The position numbers were made by a program, and so were the translations under genes. A model generated the notes under the pieces. The model saw nothing but the letters and a program-made list of their open reading frames with translations. It was not told where the DNA came from and did no database searches. Below, piece after piece: positions 10,475-48,620 of a DNA stretch of 64,000 bases (position 1 is the stretch's first letter; each line of letters opens with the position of its first letter). This DNA comes from Sulfuricurvum sp. GTDB lineage: Bacteria > Campylobacterota > Campylobacteria > Campylobacterales > Sulfurimonadaceae. The stretch is taken from positions 124,001 through 188,000 of the forward strand of contig NZ_JAQUHV010000003.1 of the NCBI RefSeq assembly GCF_028681615.1, in the 5' to 3' direction.

Positions 10475-11725
10475 TTATGAATCGGTTTTTTTACCACTTT
10501 TTTCCGCTTGTTCCCGTAATTTGTCTTTTTTACTTTTCCCTTTTCCTTTGACCGGTTCCGGTCCGCGCACTTTAGGCGGAGGTGTCCCCTGCAATTCAAA
10601 GCCTTCTATTTGTTCCCGATCGAGTTTGATGTTGCTCCGTTTTTCGATCAGTTTAAAATGATCCATATCTTCATAGGAGATGAAGGAAACGGCTATCCCT
10701 GATTTACCGGCTCTGGCAGTGCGTCCGATACGGTGGATATAATCTGCTGGAGAGCGGGGGAGGTCGAAGTTGACGACACAGGTGATATCATCGATATCCA
10801 GTCCGCGAGCTGCAATGTCGGTGGCAAAGAGAATGCGGATTTTTTTGGCTTTGAACTGATTGAGCGTGTAGGTACGATCCTCCTGGATGAGGTCGCCGTG
10901 AAACGAATCGGCCAGAAAACCGTATTTTTTGAATTTCATAGCAATATTATCGGCGGCACGTTTGTTCGCCATAAAGACAAGTACCTGCTCCCACTTTTCC
11001 GTCTTGAGCAGATGTCGGAGCAGAGGACCGCGATTTTCATGATTGACTTCGATAACTCTTTGGGTAATACTCAGTACCGTCGGTTCTTCGTAATCGAGTG
11101 TAACCTCTACCGGGTTTTGGGTGATGTTGGAGGCTATGGCAACCATTTTCGGTGGATAGGTAGCTGAAAAAAGGAGATTTTGACGCTGTGCAGGTATCTC
11201 TTTTAAGATTAGTTCCAACTCTTCGGCAAATCCGAGGTCCAGCATTTTATCTGCTTCATCGAGGACAAAAAAATCAAGATGGGAAAGATTCATCTGCTTT
11301 TTTTTCACGACATCGAGCAATCGCCCTGAGGTTGCGACAAGGATATCACACCCTTGTTGGATGGCGTAGAGCTGATCTCCGATGCTCTCTCCTCCGATGA
11401 CGCTCACTACTTTCGGTTTTTTCGGCAAAAATGCTCCGAACGTTTCAAAGGCTTCGGCAACCTGAAGGGTCAGTTCACGTGTCGGGGTGAGGATTAGTGC
11501 TTTGATTTTCGCTTTTCCCTCTCCGACGCGCGCAGACCAGAGTTCCAAAATCGGCAAGATAAAGCTCGCACTTTTCCCGCTTCCCGTCTGTGCGCGTGCC
11601 ATGATATCATGTCCCGATTTTACGAGAGGAATCACCTTTTCCTGAATAGGAGTAGGGTGTACAAAGCCGCTTTCTTTCAGTGCACGTTGTATGGGGGATG
11701 AGAGTCCGAGTGTGGAAAATGGCAT
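10475..11725 (-). CDS. DEAD-box RNA helicase (RhlE-like)
   Basis: An ATP-dependent RNA helicase of 416 residues for RNA remodelling, such as ribosome assembly or RNA decay. Motifs in order: Q motif (F..PTPIQ, 21-28), motif I AQTGSGKS (45-52, Ser in place of the usual Thr), PTRELTLQV (81-89), motif II DEAD (156-159), SAT, then the second RecA domain with LFATDIAARGLDI and HRIGRTARAG. The C-terminal 40 residues are Lys/Pro/Gly rich and probably bind RNA. A degenerate relative with only part of the second domain is encoded at 47355-48620. Confidence 0.92.
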   Translation of the reverse strand: MPFSTLGLSSPIQRALKESGFVHPTPIQEKVIPLVKSGHDIMARAQTGSGKSASFILPILELWSARVGEGKAKIKALILTPTRELTLQVAEAFETFGAFLPKKPKVVSVIGGESIGDQLYAIQQGCDILVATSGRLLDVVKKKQMNLSHLDFFVLDEADKMLDLGFAEELELILKEIPAQRQNLLFSATYPPKMVAIASNITQNPVEVTLDYEEPTVLSITQRVIEVNHENRGPLLRHLLKTEKWEQVLVFMANKRAADNIAMKFKKYGFLADSFHGDLIQEDRTYTLNQFKAKKIRILFATDIAARGLDIDDITCVVNFDLPRSPADYIHRIGRTARAGKSGIAVSFISYEDMDHFKLIEKRSNIKLDREQIEGFELQGTPPPKVRGPEPVKGKGKSKKDKLREQAEKSGKKTDS

Positions 11726-47354: not shown

Positions 47355-48620
47355 TTATTCGCTCTCTTTCGGCGATTTGAATGATTTTACATCGATTCGG
47401 CGAGGAGGACGTTTCGGTGCAGCAGGTGCTTCAGCGGGTTTCCGATCATTGTACGGTTTTTTATCCCCGAACGGTTTCTTGTCTCCAAATGATTTTTTAT
47501 CCCCATAGGGCTTTTTGTCACCGTAGGGCTTTTTATCTCCAAAAGCAGGTTTGTCGCCATAAGGCTTTTTATCCCCAAACGGTTTTTTCTCCCCGAAAGC
47601 GGGTTTATCACCGTATGGTTTCTTATCACCATAAGGTTTTTTGTCTCCGTAAGACTTCTTCTCTCCGAATGGTTTTTTACCATCTTTATCGTAAGGTTTT
47701 TTTTCTCCGAAGGACGATTTGTCTCCGTAAGGCTTCTTGTCGCCGTAAGGTTTTTTATCGCCAAACGGTTTCTTTTCACCATACGGTTTCTTTTCACCAT
47801 ACGGTTTTTTCTCTCCATCGAATGGTTTTCGCTCATCCGTATTTTTTGCTTTCTCCCCGAAAAATTTCGGTTTACTGCTGTAAGGAGTACGGGTTGCTTT
47901 TTCCGTATCGGAACGCGGGGTTCCGTCGATGTAGTGGTTACGCTCGCGGGTTTTCCCCTCGAAAATCGGTTTGCCGTTTTCATCTTTACCGACAAAACGG
48001 GGTTTGCTGTTGTGCTGTTTTTTAGAGGTAAATCCGTCATCTTCACCGCGTGCAGGCCGTCGGTCATTTCGCGGTGCATCATCGCGGTTACGTTCCGGAC
48101 GGGTATCACGAACCGGTTTTTTGTCACGATTTCGAGGATCTGCTGCATCACGGGCTTCACGCTCTGCGCGGCGAGCTTTAGCTTCGGCTTTTTGCTGATT
48201 GTCTACGGCGATTCCGAAATCGGGTTCGAATCCTTTGACGATCTCTTGGGTGATGGTACGTCCGTTGAGAAGTTCGATCGGGTAGAGCCGTTTTTGATCT
48301 TCCGCATCGAGTGTGATGAGGGCGTATTCGCTTGCTCTGGCAAAGCGTGACATATAGACAATCGCTTTTTCGGGGAGGTCATAGCTGATCAGTACTTCAC
48401 AGCGAAGATCCGGCGCTTTTGCCAGCTCGGCATCGCTGAGGACGGTGATGTTGTTCCCTGCAAACAGGTTGGTGAGTTCTCCGGCATCATCAGACGTGAC
48501 GATCAGGATTTTTTTACCGCTGTTGCGTTCGATTAAAAAATGGATCAGTTCATTTTTACGAGGGCGGTTACATGGGTGGATACGATGGTTTTGGCGTTTG
48601 ATAGGTGTCGTCGATGACAT
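47355..48620 (-). CDS. Degenerate helicase-domain protein with hexapeptide-repeat tail
   Basis: A 421-residue protein. Residues 25-135 resemble the second RecA domain of a DEAD-box helicase: KKILIVTSDDAGELTNLF, VLISYDLPEKAIVYMSRFARASEYALITLDAEDQKRL, and LNGRTI. The HRIGRTGR motif is reduced to MSRFARAS, and there is no first RecA domain, Walker A or DEAD box, so ATPase activity is not expected. Residues 145-260 are highly charged (RRAEREARDA; RPERNRDDAPRNDRRPA). Residues 264-395 are about 20 hexapeptides of the type G-D/E-K-K-P-Y/F. The C-terminus is basic. Probably an RNA-binding, largely disordered protein. AAGGAC precedes the ATG. Confidence 0.8.
   Translation of the reverse strand: MSSTTPIKRQNHRIHPCNRPRKNELIHFLIERNSGKKILIVTSDDAGELTNLFAGNNITVLSDAELAKAPDLRCEVLISYDLPEKAIVYMSRFARASEYALITLDAEDQKRLYPIELLNGRTITQEIVKGFEPDFGIAVDNQQKAEAKARRAEREARDAADPRNRDKKPVRDTRPERNRDDAPRNDRRPARGEDDGFTSKKQHNSKPRFVGKDENGKPIFEGKTRERNHYIDGTPRSDTEKATRTPYSSKPKFFGEKAKNTDERKPFDGEKKPYGEKKPYGEKKPFGDKKPYGDKKPYGDKSSFGEKKPYDKDGKKPFGEKKSYGDKKPYGDKKPYGDKPAFGEKKPFGDKKPYGDKPAFGDKKPYGDKKPYGDKKSFGDKKPFGDKKPYNDRKPAEAPAAPKRPPRRIDVKSFKSPKESE
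47436..47831 (-). repeat. 18-bp tandem repeats coding for G-D/E-K-K-P-Y/F
   Basis: About 20 imperfect copies of an 18-base unit, each coding for a hexapeptide such as GDKKPY. Variants such as GDKSSF, GDKPAF and GEKKSY recur, which suggests duplication of blocks of several units. The repeat keeps the reading frame throughout and could vary in copy number between strains. Confidence 0.85.

Follow-up and report, generated by a model that had tools for sequence, protein, structure and literature searches.

The window, by which we mean the whole 64,000-nucleotide stretch of Sulfuricurvum DNA that was analysed, carries on its minus strand (47355..48620) a complete gene with an ATG start and no internal stop. 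It encodes a basic protein of 421 aa (48 kDa, pI 9.7) that, judging from its sequence, is a pseudohelicase consisting of a RecA2 domain as its only helicase domain and a lysine-aromatic tail. All features of the protein are given below with their positions in the window and lie, like the gene, on the minus strand. The window lies at G000:C3:124001-188000 in a genome that is 2.66 Mb in size and 99.99% complete, and the nearest relatives of the protein are found in Sulfuricurvum. A literature search that included few subscription journals returned no papers on it.

Within Sulfuricurvum, the usual immediate upstream neighbour of the gene is a polysaccharide deacetylase gene in the same direction, and an ABC exporter gene also lies beside it; this neighbourhood is absent from the Sulfurimonas loci examined. 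An Rrf2 regulator gene adjoins the pseudohelicase gene in the window, whereas the two are separated by some 4.6 kb in the closest relative (L002:7228-11845). No regulatory RNA scored above the Rfam gathering score at the locus, and scans for promoters and terminators there gave no clear excess over shuffled sequences.

The N-terminal RecA2 remnant

Residues 7-135 (48216..48602) correspond to a degenerate DEAD-box RecA2 domain of the RhlE group, supported by hhalign, the NCBIfam RhlE model, AlphaFold with Foldseek, and dN/dS. A Pfam scan of the protein missed this domain and returned nothing convincing, with no match to PF00270 or Utp25_C. The NCBIfam RhlE model matched the whole protein at E=4.7e-4 with 19.2 bits, a score that does not reach its equivalog cut-off of 743 bits; the RhlE, SrmB and CsdA models all align with the second half of the N-terminal domain (E=5e-4 to 3e-3), and the match was stronger for a Sulfurimonas orthologue (E=2.5e-7). 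An hhalign comparison with domain 2 of RhlE, which is a pairwise profile-profile alignment and not a database search, gave a probability of 98.5% over 125 columns and ended at the GFEPD segment. The AlphaFold model of the domain (pLDDT 80, pTM 0.71) retrieved 28 PDB matches with Foldseek at E<=0.001, all of them chains of DEAD-box/eIF4A-type helicases and most of them C-terminal RecA2 domains. Searching the PDB with the sequence of the domain gave nothing convincing, the best match being a potassium channel (E=0.01), with DEAD-box helicases at E 0.4-0.5. On the strength of the profile alignments and the predicted structure, the N-terminal domain is the second RecA domain of an RhlE-group DEAD-box helicase.

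Most of what makes such a helicase work is missing. The protein begins at the second domain, so the first RecA domain with its Q, Walker A (I) and DEAD (II) motifs is absent. In the hhalign alignment, the strand and helix that carry motif IVa are deleted ahead of motif V. Motif V itself (ATDxAARGxD) has degenerated to NNITVLSDAELAKAP (residues 56-70, 48411..48455), where column counts leave a single invariant Asp, D63, kept in 72/72 orthologues. Motif VI (HRxGRxxR) now reads VYMSRFARASEY (residues 88-99, 48324..48359); its first Arg alone is kept in all sequences, and the arginine-finger position is replaced, mostly by Glu (45 of the 72 orthologues). A second RecA fold is thus recognised by hhalign and by Foldseek of the predicted structure, in a protein that has neither a first RecA domain nor intact motifs IVa, V and VI, and from the established roles of these motifs helicase activity of the 421-aa protein by itself should be impossible. 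Certain positions within the remnant are conserved: the domain starts with an NHRIHPC signature (residues 11-17, 48570..48590), in which H12 is present in 72/72 and C17 in 70/72 orthologues, and seven positions of the domain are invariant in all 72 (H12, K22, D63, Y89, R92, E116 and R121).

A sequence-only reading of this locus had proposed a dead helicase domain, a remnant second RecA domain without ATPase motifs joined to charged linkers and a long hexapeptide tail. The NCBIfam, hhalign and Foldseek results bear this out, the RecA2 domain being degenerate, devoid of working ATPase and RNA motifs, and fused to a basic, aromatic tail that is predicted to be disordered. No single parent helicase stands out from the sequence: profile scores overlap among the RhlE-type paralogues, and the tree gives the pseudohelicase family a branch as long as 2.05 changes per column.

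With RhlE and related helicases (NCBIfam NF007882, NF053710 and NF053711) the protein shares the second RecA fold, from its first strand to the GFEPD end, and RhlE-type helicases likewise carry a disordered basic C-terminal tail. It differs from RhlE in the lost first domain, the deleted motif IVa and the degenerate motifs V and VI, as well as in its type of tail, which is KKPY/F here and R/G-rich in the RhlE of the same genome. Some Campylobacterales encode a second stand-alone RecA2 family of about 200-250 aa, also with RecA2 only and a lysine-rich end (L177:2776-3393, L178:2822-3568 and L195-L199). Its members are less degenerate, give a longer Helicase_C match above the Pfam cut-off, lack the hairpin motif described below and are separate on the tree; they occur sporadically across several Campylobacterales families.

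Hairpin motif, hexapeptide array and basic C-terminus

Behind the RecA2 domain, a predicted helix leads into an Arg/Asp-rich charged linker, as seen from sequence composition and AlphaFold (residues 136-204, 48009..48215). It is followed by a conserved motif, SKPRFVGKDENGKPIFEGKTRERNHYIDGTPRS (residues 205-237, 47910..48008), recognised by alignment and in the order search and predicted by AlphaFold to form a small beta hairpin with two short strands (209-212 and 218-220). This hairpin-like stretch of about 30 aa, [FY][LIV]GxDExGKxxFxxKxxxRNHxxDG, is present in most family members, and the order search found no match to it outside the pseudohelicase family in 150 genomes. It corresponds to no known domain, the best PDB match having E=1.6 over 10 residues. 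Orthologue comparison also defines a conserved basic C-terminus, PKRxPRRIxVKSxK (residues 400-417, 47370..47423). Both elements are more constant across orthologues than the hexapeptide that lies between them.

The hexapeptide array consists of about 20 G-D/E-K-K-P-Y/F-like units (residues 264-393, 47442..47831) and is predicted to be disordered (pLDDT ~40). Tandem Repeats Finder reports periods of 18 bp and 54 bp at 47451-47816. The protein contains 15 KKP[YF] units and 19-20 of the looser form [DE]K[KPS]x[YF], and shuffling of the whole protein yields a mean of ~0.1 and a maximum of 2 for either unit, in agreement with the roughly 20 K-K-P-Y/F hexapeptides counted in the sequence-only reading. 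Among the 21 aromatics from residue 267 to residue 390, the spacing is exactly 6 in 18 of the 20 intervals. A recent slippage repeat is ruled out, as all 16 exact G[DE]KK[PS][YF] units differ from one another in DNA; because this divergence is at synonymous sites, the protein sequence of the unit is apparently held by selection. The number of units does vary between relatives, as had been anticipated, with 20 here, 18 in a 95%-identical relative and 7-19 in other close relatives. One orthologue (L009:5899-7497) has a stretch of N within its repeat array and changes frame behind it, probably an assembly gap.

Conservation of the repeats in kind, on which the sequence-only reading had staked its case, is found in part. 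The GDKKPY array is specific to the genus Sulfuricurvum, and Sulfurimonas tails have other lysine-rich K/P/aromatic units, such as RKPFEKPKYDKPKRDGEKSE, or almost none; four orthologues are nearly tailless, with tails of 54-60 aa (L136, L150, L151 and L153). The net charge of the tail is positive in 72/72 orthologues.

Similar tails are also found outside the phylum. The 20 proteins tested comprise 10 DEAD-box helicases, six pseudouridine synthases, two SpoU rRNA methylases, one 23S_rRNA_IVP protein and one unassigned protein, in a sample that is biased and non-random in that a DNA search retrieved its members mostly by resemblance to the tail of the 421-aa protein. These carriers point to RNA and, together with the uniformly positive charge of the orthologue tails, lend indirect support to the RNA binding that had been suggested for the array. 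A close likeness in the unit itself is with an intact RhlE-type helicase of Candidatus Methylopumilus (L036, L037), which has nearly the same GDKKPF/SFGDKK repeats at its C-terminus and differs in having complete DEAD and Helicase_C domains; this similarity is probably convergent.

Eight loci from unrelated bacteria (L032, L040, L041, L042, L047, L076, L080 and L081) encode rRNA pseudouridine synthases and SpoU rRNA 2'-O-methyltransferases with KKPY/F-like tails or arms. A 23S_rRNA_IVP-family protein (L061:5764-6693) has a C-terminal GDKKPY-type tail, and a similar one is present in L071.

Distribution, selection and linkage to rhlE

Of 37 Sulfuricurvum genomes, 31 carry the gene, the one studied here among them; it was also found in 44 genomes of a 398-genome search of the order, all from Sulfurimonadaceae, a family of sulfur oxidisers (record names of orthologue loci include Sulfurimonadaceae for L028 and Sulfurimonas for L039). 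A sample of 249 genomes from the phylum gave matches within Sulfurimonadaceae only, and none of the other families covered produced a strong match. The occurrence of the architecture in other Campylobacterota, raised by the sequence-only reading, therefore extends throughout this family and to none of the others sampled.

We estimated dN/dS region by region between the gene and nine relatives. Most regions gave about 0.05-0.15, with 0.05-0.14 for the RecA2 domain, 0.03-0.15 for the hairpin motif region, 0.02-0.15 for the C-terminus and 0.08-0.26 for the linker. The value for the repeats (0.03-0.08, from three pairs with unsaturated dS) is approximate because repeat columns were aligned by similarity. 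The protein thus has what defines a pseudohelicase: a helicase fold, no catalytic motifs and maintenance by selection.

Outside Sulfuricurvum, 17 of the 36 family genomes that carry the gene encode it head-to-head with an intact DEAD-box helicase gene, an arrangement also seen at L028. The pair is intact in 17/17 extended loci, where the flanking genes fall into several different arrangements. The paired helicase is orthologous to the true rhlE: it is 64-71% identical to the copy in the genome studied here (G000:C3:97134-98339, outside the window) and only ~43% identical to the helicase encoded in the window at 10475-11725 on the minus strand. The latter, which had been put forward as the working partner of the pseudohelicase, is a different DEAD-box paralogue and is rejected as the genomic partner. 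Head-to-head pairing with rhlE was not found in Sulfuricurvum, and the two genes are ~74 kb apart in the genome studied here.

Across 80 genomes of the family, 63 have both genes, five the pseudohelicase gene only, three rhlE only and nine neither (Fisher p=1.6e-6, a value that is too small because shared ancestry is ignored and contigs are missing). The corresponding counts in genomes at least 90% complete are 60, 4, 1 and 6 (p=1e-5); in Sulfurimonas drafts, adjacent genes can go missing together, which affects co-occurrence. Three nearly complete genomes (G150, G192 and G418) have the pseudohelicase gene and no clear rhlE. Five Sulfurimonadaceae genomes that are 97-100% complete (G070, G231, G299, G316 and G427) have neither the pseudohelicase gene nor a clear rhlE. 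Genomic linkage or co-occurrence, as would be looked for in an accessory factor of RhlE, is thus found.

A possible role beside RhlE

Given the strong selection and the frequent back-to-back encoding with an intact rhlE, the protein is probably a helper in RNA handling. Our preferred reading, which we hold with about as much doubt as confidence, is that it serves RNA metabolism as a pseudohelicase that needs no ATP, attaching to RNA-helicase or pre-ribosomal complexes, probably those of RhlE, while its tail holds RNA. An RhlE-group RecA2 domain would have split off, losing its catalytic and RNA-gripping motifs, and the remnant would have been retained as a docking domain, with further contacts made through the hairpin motif and through the basic C-terminal stretch. 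The disordered tail of lysine, aromatic and proline residues would bind RNA weakly and multivalently, and together these parts would probably bring RhlE, or its pre-ribosomal or mRNA-decay particle, to structured RNA. Three elements of this picture are inferred: that the protein touches RhlE, that its tail binds RNA and that it takes part in rRNA or mRNA handling. RecA2 domains can serve as docking sites, as for RraA on SrmB (PMC3814787), and RhlE has been linked in E. coli to the maturation of ribosomes and the decay of mRNA, and in Caulobacter to the cold degradosome (PMC5472812). RNase E is absent from Epsilonproteobacteria, which have RNase J, and the degradosome of H. pylori combines RNase J with a DEAD-box helicase (PMC5874925).

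More tentatively, the RecA2-only subunit and RhlE may form a two-protein RNA-remodelling system, a bacterial counterpart of Utp25-type pseudohelicases, in which RhlE would provide ATP-driven unwinding, and the pseudohelicase would capture RNA multivalently with its tail and use its hairpin motif for targeting. Utp25/Def, a pseudohelicase of the yeast SSU processome that has been termed the first fully validated pseudohelicase, is DEAD-box-derived, non-catalytic and conserved, with a disordered region that contains repetitive elements (PMC9539457). The same traits can be read here from sequence and predicted structure, and by analogy Utp25 appears to be the nearest described idea to our protein. 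It differs in being eukaryotic and in keeping both RecA-like domains, whereas the 421-aa protein has RecA2 only and no Pfam Utp25_C match. To our knowledge, catalytically dead helicases seem hardly to have been described in bacteria.

The protein could instead be a stand-alone RNA chaperone or condensate scaffold, its tail concentrating RNA and its RecA2 remnant self-associating; RhlE would then not be a direct partner, and the two genes would be paired because they are regulated together, for instance induced by cold from a divergent promoter. The tail is indeed long, regular, basic, aromatic and predicted to be disordered, and the gene has been kept in a few genomes that lack a clear rhlE, as well as at a distance from rhlE in Sulfuricurvum. 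Nevertheless, we consider this unlikely in view of the near-tailless orthologues, because of which the RecA2 remnant, and not a long multivalent tail, is the constant feature of the family. A little less likely still is a regulator of RhlE that acts by mimicry, the remnant competing with the second domain of RhlE for a partner or binding and restraining the first domain of RhlE. Its RhlE-group origin, the divergent pairing and the RraA-SrmB precedent would suit such a regulator, but motifs V and VI, which form the surface that would face a first RecA domain, are precisely what has degenerated, and the tree does not trace the domain to rhlE itself. A non-RNA role tied to the envelope neighbours in Sulfuricurvum, which the deacetylase gene immediately upstream might evoke, is very improbable, as these neighbours are missing in the Sulfurimonas loci and both the domain and the tail type point to RNA. 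Finally, a functionless, decaying helicase-gene fragment with a slipped 18-bp repeat, for which the lost catalytic motifs and variable repeat number might speak, is ruled out for practical purposes by the low dN/dS, the separate codons of each exact unit, the seven identical positions and the family-wide presence of orthologues.

Because helicases, pseudouridine synthases and rRNA methylases of distant bacteria carry tails of the same chemistry, the tail is also a testable RNA-handling module in itself. As a half-helicase that is under selection across the Sulfurimonadaceae and travels with an intact RhlE, the protein would offer a simple bacterial system for the effects that a lysine-aromatic tail and a RecA2 domain devoid of catalysis may have on a DEAD-box enzyme.
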